Notes: generated by a model from the letters alone, not told the origin. Shown: positions 9,575 to 19,825, counted from the first letter of the stretch. The stretch is DNA of 45,499 nucleotides from a virus (IMGVR_UViG_3300049489_000389:1-45499), one strand, 5' to 3'. Made by a program: numbers and translations.

Positions 9575-11764
9575 ATGCCTGCCAAGGAAGATAGAGACCC
9601 CACGGGGGGCCGTCAACCGCGCAAGATCACCCTGTCGAATGAGGATTTCCTTCGGACGCTCTTTGGGAAGGACTGGCAGCGCGCCCATGTGACGGGTTTC
9701 CCGGAAGACCCCTTGTCCCTGAACGGGCTGGGGCTGCGGCACCTCTGGGGCGGAGCGGCGGCGAAGCACGGGCTGAGTTACTGTCTGCCCGGGTCCAACA
9801 ACTTCTTCACGATTTCGGTCTTCGGGGTGGACCCGAAGACGGGGAGACAGCACCGGAAGAAAGCCCTGTTCGAGCGCGCCGTCGTCGTGGTGCTGGATGA
9901 CGTGGACTGGCGGGACGCGGGGGTTGGGACTGCGGGTGCGGGCACAGCCAAGGTCTCTTCGGGGAAGGTGGCGGCGGTCCCGACGTGGGTCTTGGAGACC
10001 TCGCCGGGCAACTGTCAGGTGGGGTATCTCTTGGAAGGGCCGGAGACCCGTGGCGGAAAGGTCAACGCGCTTCTGGACGCGCTGGTGAAGTCGGGACTGG
10101 TCTCGGATGGTTCAGACCCCGGCATGAAGGGCGTTACTAGGTATGTGAGGCTTCCCGTGGGGCGGAACACGAAGGCCAAGTATGGGGCCGGGGGGTTCGA
10201 ACACCGGCTGCTGGAATGGAACCCGGGGGTGACCTATCGGCTTGAGGCGCTGGCCGCGGCCTATGGGGTCCGGGCAGAGGTGGACGCGGCCCCTGATGAT
10301 CTGGGAGCCGCCCTGTGGAACGGCCTGAACGGGTCGGGACTGGATGGCGGGGACTGGATTTGGCAGACCCTTCAGAGTGCGGGGTCGGTCCTGTCGGTGG
10401 ACGCTGCGAAGGGACTGGCGCATGTAATCTGCCCGTGGGTGTCGGAACACACGGGGGGCGACACGTCCGGGACGGCCTATCTGGGGGATGGGGCGTGGAA
10501 ATGCTACCACGGCCACTGTGAGGACCGGGACCCGGAAGAGTTCACGTCGAAGCTTCGGGCGGAGTTCCCGAAGGAAGCCCGGGCCGCGGTGGCCGGAACT
10601 TTCGGAGCGGTGGGGGGAGACGAGGGGGTCGCCCCGAGCGCGAAGGAGCGGGAAGCCCGGGAGTTGTTCGGAGACGCGGCGGTGGACGCTGCTGCGGAAG
10701 AGAAGGTCTTGGGGCCTTTCCAGAAGCGCATGGCGGGGGCCGAAGTGGTCGCGGGAGGCATGGCAGGGTTCGACCCGCTGGTCATGTCGGCCTCGGTCCT
10801 GAAGGGCTTGGTCCCCGAGGTCGGGATGGGGTTGATCTACGGCGCAACGGGGATCGGCAAGTCGTTCGTGGTCATGGACCTGTGGCTGCGGCTGGCGAAC
10901 GGGTGGGACTGGCACGGGCACCGGAACAAGGCCCGGGATGGGGACTGGATTTATGTGTCCTCGGAAGGCGGGACGGTGGAACTGAAGCGGCGTTTGGCCG
11001 GCTGGATCGGGGAGAACGGCCCCATGCCGCTGAATGTGGCCTTCTACGCCGTGTCCTTCGGGTGGGGGCTGGGGGACGCGGCGCGGGAAGAGGCCGAGAA
11101 GTTTGTCCGGTGGTGCAGGGCGAGAGGACGCCCCGTGCGCGGGGTCGTGGTGGACACGCTGAACCGCAACATGGCCGGGGACGAGAACTCGACTGGTGAA
11201 ATGACGGGTTTCATTGATTGCATGGAGGTTGTTTGGCGGTCTTTGGGGGCGGTGGTGGCGGTGGTTCACCATGAAGGCAAGGACGAGGGTCGTGGTGCGC
11301 GGGGATCGAGTGCGCTGGGCGCGGCTTCGGAGTTTGTCTGGCGGGTCTTCCGGGATCAAGGAGCCATGCGGGGCGGGGTCTTCATCGAGAAGAACCGCAG
11401 CGGACCGGACGGCCAGACCTACTGGTTCGAGTTGGACAAGCACGTCTTCGGGCAGGACGCGGATGGGGACGAGGTGTCCACCCTGATCGTGCGGAAGGCG
11501 AAGCGCGCGGGACCTACGCAGGTCATCAGCCCGAGCCGGGGCATGTCGGTCGCTCTGAAGGAAGCCTACGACGCGCTGGCCCCGGTCAACGGTTGGGTGG
11601 ACCGGGAGACCCTGATCGCGGAGGCGACCGACCGCTACAAAGCGACCGGCAGGAAGGCGACCCCCTCTGAACTGAGGCGGGAACTGGACAAGCAACTGGT
11701 CGAAAAACACGGCTGGGAGGTCGCCCCGGATGGGGTGAAATCCCCGGCGTTCGAGGAGTTTTAG
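9575..11764 (+). CDS. Bifunctional primase-helicase (RepB-like primase plus RepA-like AAA ATPase)
   Basis: The 729-residue protein joins two domains. The N-terminal part (about 60-230) resembles RepB-like primases: AVVVVLDDVD, PTWVLETSPGNCQVGYLL and GVTRYVRLPVGRNTK. A linker with Cys/His residues (CYHGHCED) follows. The C-terminal part (about 405-600) is a RepA/DnaB-like hexameric ATPase with Walker A GATGIGKS (423-430), Walker B VVVDTLNRNM, and AVVAVVHHEGKDEGRGARGSS. A small tail (about 640-729) looks like a winged helix. It would unwind DNA and prime synthesis for the polymerase upstream. The start ATG 9575 follows AGAAGGAGACCAACCCC. The repeat cluster just after the gene could be its origin. 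Confidence 0.87.
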   Translation: MPAKEDRDPTGGRQPRKITLSNEDFLRTLFGKDWQRAHVTGFPEDPLSLNGLGLRHLWGGAAAKHGLSYCLPGSNNFFTISVFGVDPKTGRQHRKKALFERAVVVVLDDVDWRDAGVGTAGAGTAKVSSGKVAAVPTWVLETSPGNCQVGYLLEGPETRGGKVNALLDALVKSGLVSDGSDPGMKGVTRYVRLPVGRNTKAKYGAGGFEHRLLEWNPGVTYRLEALAAAYGVRAEVDAAPDDLGAALWNGLNGSGLDGGDWIWQTLQSAGSVLSVDAAKGLAHVICPWVSEHTGGDTSGTAYLGDGAWKCYHGHCEDRDPEEFTSKLRAEFPKEARAAVAGTFGAVGGDEGVAPSAKEREARELFGDAAVDAAAEEKVLGPFQKRMAGAEVVAGGMAGFDPLVMSASVLKGLVPEVGMGLIYGATGIGKSFVVMDLWLRLANGWDWHGHRNKARDGDWIYVSSEGGTVELKRRLAGWIGENGPMPLNVAFYAVSFGWGLGDAAREEAEKFVRWCRARGRPVRGVVVDTLNRNMAGDENSTGEMTGFIDCMEVVWRSLGAVVAVVHHEGKDEGRGARGSSALGAASEFVWRVFRDQGAMRGGVFIEKNRSGPDGQTYWFELDKHVFGQDADGDEVSTLIVRKAKRAGPTQVISPSRGMSVALKEAYDALAPVNGWVDRETLIAEATDRYKATGRKATPSELRRELDKQLVEKHGWEVAPDGVKSPAFEEF

Positions 11765-12193: not shown

Positions 12194-12292
12194 CGGGAGG
12201 ATGGCCCGATCCGAACTGTCCGACTTGGCGTAAGGAAGCTTTCGGGGAGGATGGCCCGACCCAAACTGTCCTACTTGCGGTAAGGAAGTTTC
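12194..12292. repeat. Two tandem copies of a 50-bp repeat
   Basis: Two copies with a 50-bp period (12194-12243 and 12243-12292) differ at about seven positions. Each contains GGGAGGATGGCCCGA, then AACTGTCC, ACTTG and TAAGGAAG. Each could encode a 10-codon peptide (MARSELSDLA and MARPKLSYLR, both ending TAA), but the GGAGG abuts the ATG and the differences change amino acids, so coding is doubtful. The repeat follows the stop of the small gene at 12186 by 7 nt. Confidence 0.7.
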
Positions 12293-12623
12293 TTGATCGG
12301 GTCTTGATCCACCCGGCCCGGCCCGGTCTCTGGTCCCAGCGCCCCGCGCGCCCGGGGACCGGGACCGCGCAATTCCCCGTCCCCGGTCCCCGCAATTCCC
12401 GGCCCCCGGTCCCGGCAAAGCCAGAGACCCAGCCGATCAATCCCGGTCCCCCTGTCCCCACCCCTGTCCCCACCCTTGCCCTCGCCCCGGGCTTGTGGCC
12501 CTCAAAACGCACCCCGAAAAAATCTGGAAAAAATCCGGTCCCCCCTCTTGTGCCCGGTCCCGGTCTTCGCGTAATAGGGGGACCAGACTACCCAAGACCG
12601 AAACCGAAACCCAAGAGGACCAG
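12293..12623. other. GC-rich leader region before the AAA+/VWA operon
   Basis: 331 nt without a convincing gene. It holds CTTGATC twice (near 12292 and 12303), many GGTCCC/GGGACC elements, and two CAATTCCC blocks (12370-12398) that recall the AATT/GGTCCC pattern of 17079-17220. A possible promoter is TTGTGC, 18-nt spacer, TAATAG (about 12549-12578). The last part, CCGAAACCCAAGAGGACCAG, is the ribosome-site region of the gene at 12624. Confidence 0.45.
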
Positions 12624-14156
12624 ATGACCACCCTGACCCGTAACGACCTGAAAAACGCCCTGACCCGCGCCAACGCCGGGGATGCCATTGCTGACGCCTT
12701 CGCCGCATGGCGCGCTTCCCACGGTATCGCCCGCACCGGGGATATGACCCTTGCCCAATGGCAAGCCGCCTATGACCGTTTCATTCTTGACGGCGCGGCG
12801 GGACCCGTGGCCCCCGTGGCCAGCGAAGACCAGACCACCGAAACCCAAGAGGACCTGACCCCGATGACCGCAGAAGACCAGACCCCCGCGCCCGCCGCCC
12901 GTCCCCAAGCCCCGGACCTGTCCCGGGTCCTTGACGGCCTGTCCCTTGTCCTGTCCGACAAGGCGCTTGAACCCCTGAAGGCGGGCATTGCCGCCCTGTC
13001 CCGGGACAGTGAAGCCGCCCGCAAAGAGGCGGAACAGGCCCGGCACGAAAAGGCGCTGGCCCTGATCGACGCCGAAGCCCTTCGCGCCGTGGCCAGCGTC
13101 CCCGCCGCGCCCCAAGCCCCGGGCGCGGTCCCACATGCCCAGATCATCAAGACCCAGACCGTTTCGGACCTGATCGGGGGGAAGACCGACCTCGCCAAAT
13201 CCGTCCGGGTTGACGTGTGCGATTATCAGGACGCCCCGCGCCTTGATCCAAATTTCCAGTGGCCCGCAGAGACCCCCCACATTTTCGCCGCCATGCGGGC
13301 GGGCCTCAATGTGGCCCTCTGGGGGGCGCGCGGTGTCGGCAAGTCTTCCCTGATCCGTCAGGTTGCCGCCGTTACCCGCCGCCCGCATTTCGAAATCAGT
13401 TTCCACGCGGAAACCAGCGGGTCGGAATTGTTCGGGACCCTCGGGATTGAGGGCGACGGCATGGCATGGGTCCCGGGGGACCTCTTGACCGCCATGACCA
13501 CCCCCCACGCGGTCATTGACCTGTCGGAAATCAGCGCGTCCCGCCCTGATCTTGTCATGCAGTTGAACGCGGTTCTCGAAACCTCGGGGCGGTCCATTTT
13601 CGTGGGCGGCAAGCGGCACCACGTTCACCCTTCGGTTACGTTCTTCGCCACGTCCAACGATAACGGGTCGGGCGAAGCCGCCGCCCGATATGCCGGGGTG
13701 CGGGCGATGAATGACGCCACGCGGTCCCGGTTCATCTGGGTCGAATTGGAAACCCCTTCGGCGGCGCAATTCGCCAAGATGATCCACAAGGCTACGGGGC
13801 TTCCCCTGCCCGCCGCCGAAATGCTGGCCGGGTTTGAAAAGGCGGCGGAAACCCATGTCAGGCAAGGCAAGTGCGAAGCGACCCCCGGCCCCCGGGCATG
13901 GTATGCCTTCGCCAAGCTTTCACTCGCGGGCCTGCCCCATGAAACCGCTTTCGCCTATGCGGTTGAAAACCTCGGGACCCAAGAGGACGGCGCGGTGTGG
14001 CGGCAGGAATTCAGCGCCAATTTCCCCGGGTCGGCCTATGCCGCCGCCGTGAAGGGCAAGGCCACGCTTCAAACCCCGGTCAGCGGCGGGACGGGCTACA
14101 TTGACCCGGACGCCCCGACCCGTTCGGGCTTCACCCCGGTCCCGGATGACCTCTGA
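12624..14156 (+). CDS. cobS-like: MoxR/CobS-like AAA+ ATPase
   Basis: The 510-residue protein has a disordered Thr/Glu/Pro/Ala-rich N-terminus, a charged helical region (SEAARKEAEQARHEKALALID) and a MoxR/CobS-type AAA+ domain from about residue 215. Walker A is GARGVGKS (234-241). SELFGTLGIEGDGMAWVPGDLL is the typical MoxR beta-hairpin region. The Walker B position reads VIDLSEIS, where the expected DE appears as SE. Sensor 1 is FFATSND and the arginine-finger region is DATRSRF. The family acts as a motor for a VWA partner, here the next gene. Start ATG 12624 follows AAGAGGA. CobS in bacteria is a cobaltochelatase subunit, but no CobN is present. Confidence 0.85.
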   Translation: MTTLTRNDLKNALTRANAGDAIADAFAAWRASHGIARTGDMTLAQWQAAYDRFILDGAAGPVAPVASEDQTTETQEDLTPMTAEDQTPAPAARPQAPDLSRVLDGLSLVLSDKALEPLKAGIAALSRDSEAARKEAEQARHEKALALIDAEALRAVASVPAAPQAPGAVPHAQIIKTQTVSDLIGGKTDLAKSVRVDVCDYQDAPRLDPNFQWPAETPHIFAAMRAGLNVALWGARGVGKSSLIRQVAAVTRRPHFEISFHAETSGSELFGTLGIEGDGMAWVPGDLLTAMTTPHAVIDLSEISASRPDLVMQLNAVLETSGRSIFVGGKRHHVHPSVTFFATSNDNGSGEAAARYAGVRAMNDATRSRFIWVELETPSAAQFAKMIHKATGLPLPAAEMLAGFEKAAETHVRQGKCEATPGPRAWYAFAKLSLAGLPHETAFAYAVENLGTQEDGAVWRQEFSANFPGSAYAAAVKGKATLQTPVSGGTGYIDPDAPTRSGFTPVPDDL

Positions 14157-14255
14157 CCCGGGACCCGCACCGGGGGGCTTGACGGCCCCCCGGACCCCGT
14201 GTTAGTGGCAGGGCCACTAAAGACGAACCAATCGAAACCCAAAGGACCTAGACCC

Positions 14256-16193
14256 ATGACACAGATCAGCGCAGCACAATGGCGCGATGCCGCCGCCGCC
14301 GCTTTCGCCCGCACCCTTGCGGACCTCTTCAAGATCAAGCCCGCCAAGATCAGTCTTAGCACCCACGTCAACAGCGGGACCGCTTCGGTAGGCTGGACGC
14401 TATACCGGGGGCCTGCCGGTCAGGTTACTGGCATGGATGTGCAGCTATTCCTTCCGGCCCTCTTGCCCGGCGCGCGGTTGACCGCCCGGGACGCTGACGC
14501 GCTGGCGGGCTATTGGGTTCACGAAGCCTGCCACGTCCTTTTCACCGATTGGCATGAATGGACCCGGGCTTGCGCCCGGGGGCAGGCTTTCCGGTCCCTT
14601 GTGAACGGCATTGAGGACGTGCGGATTGAGCGGACCTTGATGGACGGGGGCAAGGTCCCCGGCGCGCGGGCGGTTCTCGAAACCACTGTTGAGCGCGCTG
14701 TCTGGACCGGCCCCGCGACCCCTGAAACCGTCAACCGCAAAGACGCCCTGCCCGCCGTGCTGGCCTATCTTGGCCGGGCGCGCTGCAACGGTTTCAACCT
14801 GTCCCTGTCGCGGGACATGTGGGACGCCCTGACCCCCGGAAACCGGGCGATTGTGGCCCGCGTTCTGGCCGCTATCCCCGGCCTCACGTCAACCGCTGAC
14901 GTGGTGGCCCTTGTCGCCCAAGTCTTCGCCAATCCGACCCAAGCCGGGCAGGACCCGAAGCCCGAAGCCCAGCCCAAAGCCCAGCCCGAAGACGGCGAAG
15001 GCGAAGGCCAGCCCGAAGACGGCGAAGGCGAAGGCCAGCCCGAAGACGGCGAAGGCGAAGGCCAGCCCGAAGACGGCGAAGGCGAAGGCGAAGGCGAAGG
15101 CGAAGGCGAAGGCGAAGGCCAGCCCGAAGACGGCGAAGGCGAAAGCGAAGGCGAAGGCGAAGGCGAAGGCGAAGGCGAAGACCTGTCCCCGGTCCCGGCC
15201 CAAGGCCAAGAGCAATCCGCGCCTCACGCCGGGCACGGGGACGCCCAGCGCCAGACCCGCGCCCTTGATGACTTCGGCACCCTGTCGGAAGCCGACGCCC
15301 TGTCGGAAGCGGAAATGTCCAAGGCGGCGCGCGACGTGGCCGCGAAGATCAATGGCGAAGACCTGTCCCCCACGGCGCAAGGGCTTCTCCTCCGGCCAAT
15401 GGCCCAGCGCGCCCTTCCCAAGGCCAGCGCCTTGATGGATGGGCGCGGGGTTGAAGCCCTGACCGAAGCCCAGAGCAACGGCGCGCTTCGGTCGGCTGTC
15501 CGTCGCCTTGTCCTGTCCCCCGAAGCCTTCGGCTGGCAACGCAACCTTGAACGCGGGCGGCTGGACCCCCGCGCTTTGCACCGGGCCAAGATCGGGGCGC
15601 GGGACGTTTACCGCCGCCCCGACCTGCAAGAGGGACACAAGGCGGCGGTGTCCCTTGTGCTGGACATGTCCGGGTCCATGGGTCGCAACGCGGTTCCGCA
15701 AGCGATCATGGCCTATCAGGTTGCGGCGGCGGTTGAAGCGGCGGGCGCGCTTGTGTCGGTCAGTGCCTTCACCGGGGGCGAAACCCTCGCCCGCGTGAAG
15801 GGCTTCGGGGAACGGGTCGCAACCGTGCAAGAGCGGTTTCTTGCCGCTGGCCACTCGCCCGGGTCTTACACGCCCTTGGCCCCGTCCATCGTGGCCACGG
15901 CGGGAAACCTTGTCCAAGCCCCGGCAACCGCCCGGGTCCTCTTCGCCCTGACCGACGGGCAAGATGATACGGGTGCGCACCGGGTCAAAGAGGCAATCAA
16001 GATCGCCCAAGCCCAAGGCGTCCTAGTGGTGGGCGTGGTCATCAATGACCGCGACGGGCGCGGCCCTGACGCCTTCGGATTTGGCCCGGCGGATGCCGCC
16101 GTTGCCTGTCGCGCGGTTGATCTTGGCCCGGCTGTCCTGACCGCGCTGGCCGGGCTTCTGGACCGCAACCGGGGCAAGCGCAAAGCCGCCTGA
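14256..16193 (+). CDS. cobT-like: CobT-like protein: HExxH domain, acidic repeat and VWA domain
   Basis: The 645-residue protein has three parts. The N-terminal domain carries HEACH (89-93), a zinc-metalloprotease HExxH motif, followed by NGIEDVRIE, whose Glu could be the third ligand as in gluzincins. A low-complexity acidic region (about 243-308) is made of GQPEDGEGE repeats. The C-terminal VWA domain has a complete MIDAS: DMSGS (470-474), a Thr in YTPLAPSI and FALTDGQDD. This architecture pairs with MoxR-type ATPases, and the AAA+ partner is directly upstream. Start ATG 14256 follows CGAAACCCAAAGGACCTAGACCC. Whether the HExxH site is catalytic is unknown. A cobalamin role is unlikely without CobN. 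Confidence 0.85.
   Translation: MTQISAAQWRDAAAAAFARTLADLFKIKPAKISLSTHVNSGTASVGWTLYRGPAGQVTGMDVQLFLPALLPGARLTARDADALAGYWVHEACHVLFTDWHEWTRACARGQAFRSLVNGIEDVRIERTLMDGGKVPGARAVLETTVERAVWTGPATPETVNRKDALPAVLAYLGRARCNGFNLSLSRDMWDALTPGNRAIVARVLAAIPGLTSTADVVALVAQVFANPTQAGQDPKPEAQPKAQPEDGEGEGQPEDGEGEGQPEDGEGEGQPEDGEGEGEGEGEGEGEGQPEDGEGESEGEGEGEGEGEDLSPVPAQGQEQSAPHAGHGDAQRQTRALDDFGTLSEADALSEAEMSKAARDVAAKINGEDLSPTAQGLLLRPMAQRALPKASALMDGRGVEALTEAQSNGALRSAVRRLVLSPEAFGWQRNLERGRLDPRALHRAKIGARDVYRRPDLQEGHKAAVSLVLDMSGSMGRNAVPQAIMAYQVAAAVEAAGALVSVSAFTGGETLARVKGFGERVATVQERFLAAGHSPGSYTPLAPSIVATAGNLVQAPATARVLFALTDGQDDTGAHRVKEAIKIAQAQGVLVVGVVINDRDGRGPDAFGFGPADAAVACRAVDLGPAVLTALAGLLDRNRGKRKAA
14982..15180 (+). repeat. 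27-bp and GGCGAA tandem repeats inside the VWA gene
   Basis: Copies of a 27-bp unit start at 14982, 15009, 15036, 15063 and 15120; after 15063 and 15120 runs of the hexamer GGCGAA (Gly-Glu) extend the array. The frame is kept, giving GQPEDGEGE-type acidic repeats. Such arrays change length easily by slippage, so the copy number may vary between isolates. Confidence 0.9.
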
Positions 16194-17078: not shown

Positions 17079-17455
17079 TTACCAATTGCGGTCCCCGGTC
17101 CCGCTAATTGCGAAGACCCAGCCCCCCGGCATGGTTCCAGAGGGCGCGCTAATTGGCGCGACGGTCCCCGCTAATTGACGGTCCCCGGTCCCCGTCTTTG
17201 CGGTCCCCGGGCAGGTCGGCCCCCGCCATCCGGCCCCCGGCCACCCACCGCTCGGCCCGCGAAAATGTGGATATGGCTCACACATATCCGGGACTTTTCC
17301 CCAATGTCGTAACAATTTGAACCACTTAGCCAAAAATTTTCCCAAAATTTCCAGAGGGGGGTTAACAGAACGGGAACCCCGGGCTAAGATGGGGTCGCAA
17401 GGCGCTTGAAGCTTCCCCTCGGCGCGGGGCCGGAACCGCAAGGACCCCCTCCCCC
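17079..17455. repeat. Intergenic repeat region with GCTAATTG/GGTCCC elements, hairpin and AT-rich tract
   Basis: This 377-nt region has no convincing gene. GCTAATTG is repeated at 17103, 17148 and 17170. GGTCCC occurs six times (17090, 17097, 17163, 17180, 17187, 17202). A 7-bp hairpin (GGATATG / CATATCC, arms 17269-17275 and 17283-17289) follows, then an AT-rich tract (17304-17352) with CAAAAATTTT and CAAAATTT. Iterons, a hairpin and an AT-rich tract together fit an origin; a complex promoter or packaging site is also possible. Confidence 0.6.
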
Positions 17456-19825
17456 GTGCCGAAAGACATCACCGCCCCCCGTCGCGGCTTCTCCTTCAAG
17501 GATTTCAGCCTCTCCAAACCCAACCAGCCCCTCCCCGGAGACCGGCTGGACATGGAACTCGACCGTCTCGCCGTCAGTTTCAGCAACTTCGAAGCCTTTC
17601 TGCGGACCTCTTTCGAAGCCGACGGCACTCTGAAGGGGTCCACCGTCGAAGCCCGCAACCTGAAGCCGGGCGTTCTGGACCCCCTGACGGCCCAAGTGGA
17701 CCGGGCGGTCCAATCCGCGCTCCAAATCATCGACGCCCGGGAAAAAAGCACCCAGAACCTCGCAATCGAGGCCCGAAACGCCACTTCCGAGGCGAAAACC
17801 GCTGCCCAAGAGGCCCAACAGGCCGGGCAAGAGGCCAAAACCCTCAACCAGCAGTCCCAAGCCGCCGCACAGGCCGCAAACCAAGCCCGCGCCCGGGCCG
17901 AAGCCGCACTCGCACCCCTTTCCGTCACCCGGGCAGACACCCTGACCGCCGCGTCCAGCGCCCGGATCGCGGAAGACATGGCCTACCGCTGGGCGGAGAA
18001 GACCGACGGCCCGGTTTTCGTCCCCAACGGCGGGAACCCGGTCGATGACGGCTTTTTCTCCGCGAAATACCACGCGATCCGCGCGGGCGCTGCCTCCAAC
18101 CTCGTCGGGAGCCAGTGGCAGGAGGTCCGGGACTGGCACCACGAAATCGAGACGGTCTTCTACCCCGAGACCAAAGCCCTCCACCGGGAGTTCTTCTCGA
18201 CCTACTACGGTCCCTTCCCGACCCCGCCGACCGAAGACCCCTTCGGACAGCCCCCCACCCCCGGGGACCTCTACTTCAACACGGGCATCAACGCGATGTT
18301 CGTCTGGAACGGGTCCCTCCAACGCTGGGACACCTTCGACGGGGGCGGGACCGTCTCCACTTTCCTCGACCTGACGGACACCCCGAACGCCTACGCCGGC
18401 CAAGCCGGGAGCATGGTGGTGGTCAACCCCGCCGCCGACGGTCTCCTGTTCGAAGTCCCGTTCCGTCAGGCCCAAGCCGACGCGCGCTTCCTGAACCTCG
18501 CGGGCGGGACCCTCACGGGCTTCCTGCTTCTTCACGCCGCCCCCACCCAGCCCCTTCACGCGGCCACCAAGGGCTACGCCGACAGCCTCGACGCGGCCAC
18601 CCGTGCAGCCTTCGCCGCCGCGGACACCCAAATCCGCACCGATTTCGCCAGCGCCGACACCCAAATCCGCACCGATTTCCAAGCTGCGGACGCGGCCCTT
18701 CAGACCCAGATCAACACCCGTCTGCCCCTGAGCGGCGGCACCCTCACGGGCGCTCTCACCCTGCCCGGGGACCCCACCCAGAACCTTCAGGCTGCGCCCA
18801 AGCAGTATGTGGACACCAAGGTCGCGGCCCTCACGGGCGGGCAAGTGATCCCGTCCTCCGCCACGCCCATCGTCCTGACCGGGACCAGCTTGAACACGCT
18901 GGTCATCACCGGGACCGAAGCCCAGATCGTCACCCTGCCCAACGCAGCCAGCGCCGGGCTGGGCCGCACCTTCACCATCACCAACCTCTCCACCCTCGTC
19001 GCCACCGTGCAGGCCAACAACGGCAGCGCCATCGGCCAGCCCCTTGAGCCGGGCATGACGGCGACCTACACCTGCATCCAGTCCTCGGGCGGGGGTGCAG
19101 CCTCGTGGACCCAAAGCTTCACCGGGGCCAGCGCCCGCAGCGGGACGGGCGCAGTCCTCCACGCCGCCAACCCCGTCGTCTCCGGCGCTCTCACCCTGCC
19201 CGGGGACCCGACCCAAGCCCTCCACGCGGCCCCCAAGCAGTATGTGGACGCCAAGGTCGCGGCCATCCCCGCGCCCGTGCCCTTCGCCACCGAGGCCGAA
19301 GCCCTTGCCGGGACCCGCACCGACCGCGTGATGTCCCCGGCCCTCGTCGCCGCCCGCAGCGGGACCGAGACCATCAACACGGCGGGCCTCTCGCAAGTGG
19401 TCTTCAGCTTCCCCGAAGAGGTGAACAAGATCGCCTTCACCTTCGGCAACGTGACCTTCGACACGCCCGACGCAGGAGTGCTTCTCAGCTTCCTCTCCGC
19501 CCCGAACCAACAGCACTCGTCCCTGCGGCAAGTGCTGGGCGCGGCCTATGCCGCTCCCGTAGCCCTCACCCCCACCGTGGGCGGGGGCCTTGCCATCGAC
19601 CCCAGCGGCATCACTGGCGGGATGCTGGGCACCTACTTCCTTGAGCGCGTCCCGGGTTCGACCGTCCAGTGGATTTTGACCGGCTGGCACCGCCGGGGGA
19701 ACTCCATCATCCAACACGCGGGCGCGCGGCTGATCGTGAACGAGACGACCATGCGGCAAATCCGCTTCGTGTCCTCGCCCGGGGCCTTCGCATCCAACAA
19801 CATCGTTTCCCGGTGGAGCATCTGA
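17456..19825 (+). CDS. Tail fibre protein with repeated shaft units
   Basis: The 789-residue protein starts at GTG 17456 (AAGGA upstream). The N-terminus is followed by a long Ala/Gln-rich coiled coil (about 75-165: TSEAKTAAQEAQQAGQEAKT...). The middle holds GDLYFNTGINAMFVWNGSLQRW, a motif typical of fibre head domains. Then come repeats of the form LSGGTLTGALTLPGDPTQ ... AAPKQYVDTKVAAL, a unit common in phage fibres, present at about residues 345-385, 425-460 and 575-605. A beta-rich C-terminus follows. It would bind the host receptor. The gene lies upstream of the terminase rather than at the end of the virion block, a less common position. Confidence 0.85.
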   Translation: MPKDITAPRRGFSFKDFSLSKPNQPLPGDRLDMELDRLAVSFSNFEAFLRTSFEADGTLKGSTVEARNLKPGVLDPLTAQVDRAVQSALQIIDAREKSTQNLAIEARNATSEAKTAAQEAQQAGQEAKTLNQQSQAAAQAANQARARAEAALAPLSVTRADTLTAASSARIAEDMAYRWAEKTDGPVFVPNGGNPVDDGFFSAKYHAIRAGAASNLVGSQWQEVRDWHHEIETVFYPETKALHREFFSTYYGPFPTPPTEDPFGQPPTPGDLYFNTGINAMFVWNGSLQRWDTFDGGGTVSTFLDLTDTPNAYAGQAGSMVVVNPAADGLLFEVPFRQAQADARFLNLAGGTLTGFLLLHAAPTQPLHAATKGYADSLDAATRAAFAAADTQIRTDFASADTQIRTDFQAADAALQTQINTRLPLSGGTLTGALTLPGDPTQNLQAAPKQYVDTKVAALTGGQVIPSSATPIVLTGTSLNTLVITGTEAQIVTLPNAASAGLGRTFTITNLSTLVATVQANNGSAIGQPLEPGMTATYTCIQSSGGGAASWTQSFTGASARSGTGAVLHAANPVVSGALTLPGDPTQALHAAPKQYVDAKVAAIPAPVPFATEAEALAGTRTDRVMSPALVAARSGTETINTAGLSQVVFSFPEEVNKIAFTFGNVTFDTPDAGVLLSFLSAPNQQHSSLRQVLGAAYAAPVALTPTVGGGLAIDPSGITGGMLGTYFLERVPGSTVQWILTGWHRRGNSIIQHAGARLIVNETTMRQIRFVSSPGAFASNNIVSRWSI

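Follow-up and report, generated by a model that had tools for sequence, protein, structure and literature searches.

A viral MoxR-type AAA+/VWA gene pair with an HExxH-containing partner and a serine in the Walker B motif

What does a gene pair resembling the CobS and CobT cobaltochelatase subunits do in a virus, and how might its motor work when the magnesium-binding aspartate of the Walker B motif is replaced? These questions are raised by a complete virus record of 45,499 bases (IMGVR_UViG_3300049489_000389:1-45499), analyzed here over its whole length and referred to as the window. The window carries phage genes for an exonuclease, a helicase, a Holliday junction resolvase, a primase-helicase, a terminase, a portal protein and a major head protein, and belongs to a distant relative of the Microcystis phage Mae-Yong1326-1 (62% identity for the major capsid protein, 48% for the portal, 48% for the terminase and 44% for the DNA polymerase). 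Phage pairs of this kind, including those whose vWA partner has a metallopeptidase domain at its N terminus, are already published (PMC7824862, PMC8651126). The new element is the Walker B serine together with an additional aspartate, Asp299, in one genome.

A conserved AAA+/VWA gene pair

The two genes adjoin on the plus strand, with a gap of 99 bp, an adjacency repeated in relatives. The upstream ORF (12624..14156, +), preceded by AGAGGACC, encodes a 510-aa AAA+ ATPase of the MoxR clade (CobS/NorQ/CbbQ-like); the downstream ORF (14256..16193, +), preceded by AAAGGACC, encodes a 645-aa CobT-like protein with a zincin-like N-terminal domain, an acidic linker and a VWA domain. Both start with ATG and are full-length, with a GC3 of 0.76-0.78, slightly under that of their neighbors. 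A 22-nt repeat (ACCGAAACCCAAGAGGACC...) is located directly 5' of both gene starts (12603-12624 and 14231-14252), and a third copy lies within the AAA+ gene (12837-12858). Two 47-nt direct repeats, 87% alike, are found at 12195-12291, between the primase-helicase and AAA+ genes. The GGTCCCCGGTCCC-type motif occurs in 7 copies in the window against 0.7 expected, and GGTCCCGGT in 14 copies against 1.1; clusters of the two occupy the gaps that flank the pair (12348-12572 and 17089-17211).

The AAA+ protein matches Pfam AAA_5 over aa 229-370 (1.9e-17; 64 bits against a cut-off of 22) and phrog_249 (3.6e-28), and the profile of its family matches the solved CobS structure (1.9e-88). Foldseek searches with its AF2 model (pLDDT 83.6) returned NorQ/CbbQ proteins at the top, the best being NorQ (TMt 0.86). 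We aligned the window protein with 78 distinct homologues from phage records, plasmid records and viral contigs. In the Walker A motif (GARGVGKS, aa 234-241; 13323..13346, +), G234, G237 and K240 are identical in all 78 homologues and G239 is kept in 77. The catalytic Glu302, the sensor 1 asparagine N345 (13653..13667, +), the arginine finger R369 (13722..13733, +) and the sensor 2 arginine R424 (13887..13898, +) are each conserved in 78/78.

The partner matches phrog_1576 (1.1e-22), whereas VWA and CobT models match it weakly: Pfam VWA stays below its cut-off (17.5 vs 23.8 bits), and the Pfam CobT model PF06213, found in 23 of 52 members of the partner family, has no match in the window protein itself. 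The partner family profile, A5, nevertheless aligns with the solved CobT 9uka_G over nearly the full length (3.5e-72). The N-terminal zincin-like domain (aa 1-230; 14256..14945, +) is confidently modeled by AF2 and contains the motif HEACH (aa 89-93; 14520..14534, +). HExxH is present in 76/78 aligned partners, the window included, and the full pattern HExxH...E...E in 74/78. Downstream, the segment NGIEDVRIE (aa 117-125; 14604..14630, +) offers E120 as a candidate third metal ligand; H89, E90, H93, E120 and D121 are identical in 57/57 rows of A5. In the model, the predicted helices 77-96 and 110-131, which follow one another, carry HExxH and E120, respectively, as expected for a gluzincin. 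The gluzincin signature, HExxH with a downstream Glu ligand, is thus seen at the level of sequence, and a search with the N-terminal domain profile gave no peptidase match in the PDB. HExxH is absent from the four cellular CobTs examined, three of them plasmid-borne and the fourth 9uka_G, which aligns over the same N-terminal domain. Given that HExxH...E is kept in the phage proteins and missing from these cellular CobTs, the N-terminal head probably binds metal. Two dnaE-linked CobT-like proteins (L004 2325-4460 and L008 2487-4415) have lost both histidines of HExxH while keeping the Glu residues and the MIDAS; proteolysis is therefore not essential everywhere.

The linker between the two folded parts of the partner (aa 245-370; 14988..15365, +) contains acidic repeats and is predicted to be disordered. 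Its pLDDT is <50 over nearly all of 246-369, D and E together make up 34% of residues, and repeats are apparent at the DNA level too. The C-terminal part comprises the finger region and VWA domain (aa 395-645; 15438..16190, +), assigned from the Foldseek match and the MIDAS columns. The MIDAS is complete, with D470/S472/S474, the Thr of GSYTPL (536-541) and D567 forming the DxSxS...T...D pattern. The VWA region is confidently modeled, and its best Foldseek match is the NorD VWA domain in the NorQ-NorD complex (3.7e-12).

An earlier note, made from the sequence, had described a MoxR/CobS-class ATPase with intact Walker A, sensor and arginine residues and a VWA partner joining HEACH, an acidic repeat and a complete MIDAS. 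This observation on the pair is confirmed, far above chance, by the AAA_5 match, the NorQ/CbbQ and NorD folds and the conservation of the motifs; the interpretation given with it is borne out in part. The same note made the protease idea depend on a nearby third ligand, for which the invariant E120 on the adjoining predicted helix is a candidate. The search that it proposed for phage genomes with the same pair recovered many: the pair is widespread, and almost every viral locus retrieved has the AAA+ and VWA genes next to each other.

The serine in the Walker B motif

The Walker B motif reads VIDLSE (aa 297-302; 13512..13529, +), with S301 in the Asp column, E302 kept and an extra acidic residue, D299. 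Among the 78 distinct homologues, column 301 holds Asp in 76, Asn in one (L006), Glu in one (L036) and Ser in none, and column 299, two residues 5' of it, is never acidic (0/78), so that both residues are unique to the window, one metagenomic genome for which no close relative was found. The replacement of the Mg-binding Asp by Ser, singled out in the earlier note, thus stands. Were the conserved Asp to align elsewhere, the claim would fall; D299 is present, but E302 and the segment after it, which align gap-free in the close clade, set the register of the motif, so that an alignment slip is ruled out and D299 is no misaligned Asp. A single base-call error is likewise ruled out, because the Ser301 codon TCG (13524-13526), at least two changes away from Asp, differs from GAC and GAT at all three positions. 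A frameshift in the AAA+ gene can also be dismissed, the ORF being intact. Despite the missing Walker B Asp, we assign the protein as a variant inside the MoxR family, because the profile and every other motif hold.

The phage group containing the nearest partner sequence (L083) has, in L011, a canonical LDEIS Walker B motif. The AAA+ end branch of the window is 2.71, compared to a median of 0.2 and to 1.26 for the related L011, and the partner branch is 1.65 compared to 1.52 for L083, with the caveat that estimates this long are unsure. The two other homologues without Asp at this position (L006 3322-4365 with Asn, L036 1-855 with Glu) are also on long branches. Protein-pattern scans with both window proteins, run to see if the Ser is shared, found no close relative in viral_contigs, and the AAA+ scan of genome_contigs found none either. 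Among the terminase and major capsid protein relatives, mostly fragments, 16 records gave no AAA+ match, the sole trace of the pair being a contig-end CobT in one record.

In P-loop NTPases, the carboxylate of Walker B forms a hydrogen bond with the Ser/Thr of Walker A, and its conservation has been called strict (PMC9599734); for this reason, Ser301 should weaken hydrolysis. The motor, with its altered magnesium-binding residue, may act slowly or through modified chemistry. This natural Walker B Asp-to-Ser change offers a way to gauge how necessary the residue is to an AAA+ motor, though in one genome only.

Gene context and alternative readings

To the 5' side of the pair is the primase-helicase gene (9575..11764, +; phrog_2850, 9e-36, and phrog_906, 2.4e-24), which adjoins the pair in the window and in Mae-Yong1326-1, an arrangement shared by roughly a dozen related contigs. 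DNA polymerase and primase are encoded near the pair in a Cobavirinae phage, ligase and DnaE in hairong and SSU5, a sigma factor and DnaE in other loci, SSB, toprim and exonuclease in further loci, and RecT, exonuclease and RadC in another. Some homologues are on records filed as plasmids, of which some may be phage-plasmids. The pair also adjoins a 789-aa ORF (17456-19825) with weak tail-fibre/hyaluronidase-like matches and no Pfam match; a relative of this ORF is beside the pair in ~20 related contigs, where a short segment of the ORF's sequence is conserved in the neighbors of the pair. Taken together, the context leans toward replication and recombination more than toward virion assembly, with the reservation that the annotated contexts are those of top-hit loci and not a random sample.

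Several readings of the pair's function have to be weighed against this evidence. Because the pair borders ORF 17456, a late function is conceivable. For the same architecture in the group 2.2 jumbo phages, a role in virion assembly has been proposed after the example of the MoxR-vWA system of the ATV tail (PMC7824862), and the virion suggestion of the earlier note corresponds to this proposal; the pair would then be a chaperone that remodels, and perhaps cleaves, head or tail proteins as particles form. ATV ORF892 is among the weaker viral fold matches. The annotated neighbors at the examined loci, however, are replication and recombination genes, and homologues also occur on the plasmid-filed records, so that we regard a role in virion assembly as rather unlikely. 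Far less credit can be given to cobaltochelatase subunits that recruit a host CobN and boost cobalamin supply. Both proteins are homologous to CobS and CobT, and such a role has been put forward for archaeal tailed viruses (PMC8651126), but CobN (PF02514) is encoded in none of 34 records (the window and 33 related records), which makes a cobaltochelatase role unlikely, as the earlier note had concluded from the window. In addition, the NCBIfam equivalog models score far under their cut-offs (CobS, 47.1 vs 558.55 bits; CobT, 31.4 vs 759.05), neither the window nor its ~50-kb relatives contain a ribonucleotide reductase scoring above the cut-off, no Rfam riboswitch or other family reaches threshold, and the HExxH motif sets the phage protein apart from the four cellular CobTs. 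The cobalamin or porphyrin biosynthesis label usually attached to this common phage pair is thus disfavored by the phage-kept HExxH and the lack of CobN in all 34 records; the same evidence makes a protein-remodeling role with a metal-binding head testable. An anti-phage defense system was dismissed, PADLOC giving one weak match for the AAA+ protein (0.0059) and none for the partner.

The remaining readings concern the motor itself. With an AAA+ branch so far above the median, decay of the gene is conceivable: the Ser would mark lost ATPase function in a pair that is disappearing or purely structural, a reading that gains from the unique loss of a catalytic-site Asp, from the branch lengths of both proteins and from the long branches of the other non-Asp homologues. 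We consider decay improbable, given the full-length ORFs with a GC3 just under that of the neighbors, the intact remaining motor residues, the retention of HExxH, E120 and MIDAS in the partner, and the uncertainty of long-branch estimates. Full compensation, with D299 assuming the role of the lost Asp and hydrolysis proceeding normally, seems to us a little more doubtful. The co-occurrence of the unique D299 with S301 argues for it, as does the model, in which residues i and i+2 would share a face of the predicted strand 297-301, whereas by general geometry an Asp two residues back is expected to be ~6 A further from the metal. We attach a similarly small probability to the more specific proposal of either a working motor with its carboxylate shifted to D299 or an ATP-bound, barely hydrolyzing clamp, in each case with a metal-dependent protease head.

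A predicted remodeling machine and its known relatives

The reading that we prefer, at about even chances, is that of a phage MoxR AAA+/VWA remodeling machine of the CobST/NorQD type with a slowed or re-tuned ATPase. Sequence and conservation were examined directly here, as were the predicted folds, the pairing of the genes and their context; the oligomer, mechanism, metal, proteolysis, slow hydrolysis and target are inferred. The pairing, the NorQ/CbbQ and NorD folds, the CobS and CobT profiles and the intact other motor residues are evidence for a NorQD-type machine; the Ser confined to one genome, the long AAA+ branch and contexts taken from top hits are points against it. In NorQD, a finger of the VWA protein enters the hexamer pore and its N-terminal domain docks on the ring, the linker stretches as the VWA domain turns, and the MIDAS is unneeded for NorQ binding; the target enzyme is inactive with a Walker B Glu mutant of NorQ and with MIDAS mutants of NorD (PMC13036017, PMC9976466). 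By analogy with these relatives, the phage ATPase would form a hexamer that receives one VWA partner per ring, with the finger in the pore and the N-terminal domain docked on the ring. ATP-driven motion would turn the VWA domain and stretch the disordered acidic linker, and the MIDAS metal would grip an acidic residue of the target, which might be pulled open or apart. The N-terminal gluzincin-type HExxH...E site is probably metal-binding and may cut the target. With S301 but the catalytic Glu kept, the motor probably still binds ATP and assembles into a ring, and hydrolysis is probably weakened or else partly rescued by D299. On gene context, the target would more likely be a replication or recombination complex than the virion.

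Several known systems provide comparisons. The cobST pair has been described in tailed viruses whose hosts span eight orders, and its cobT gene frequently carries a peptidase annotation (PMC8651126); Mae-Yong1326-1 itself is annotated with CobS and CobT (PMC9503304). Its ORF3 and ORF4 resemble the window pair in gene order and size (508 and 644 aa vs 510 and 645 aa), and also in HExxH, MIDAS, acidic linker and the primase-helicase neighbor, but its AAA+ protein has a canonical VDE Walker B motif and is only ~30% identical to that of the window over the aligned part. The group 2.2 jumbo phages, compared by published description alone, share the architecture and pairing, with an N-terminal metallopeptidase on the vWA partner of the MoxR protein and a proposed role in virion assembly (PMC7824862); the window phage differs in its smaller size, altered Walker B motif and replication-gene neighbors. 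NorQ-NorD (9qh6, 9qhd) is alike in the AAA+ fold (TMt 0.86), gives the best VWA fold match and shares the layout of N-domain, disordered linker and VWA domain, although homology of the NorD N-terminal domain was undetected and NorD serves in iron insertion into cNOR. CobS-CobT (9ujv, 9uka) gives profile matches for both window proteins, nearly end to end in the case of CobT; in contrast to that system, the window lacks CobN, the cellular CobTs examined lack HExxH, and CobS has the canonical DE where the phage motor has Ser and Glu.
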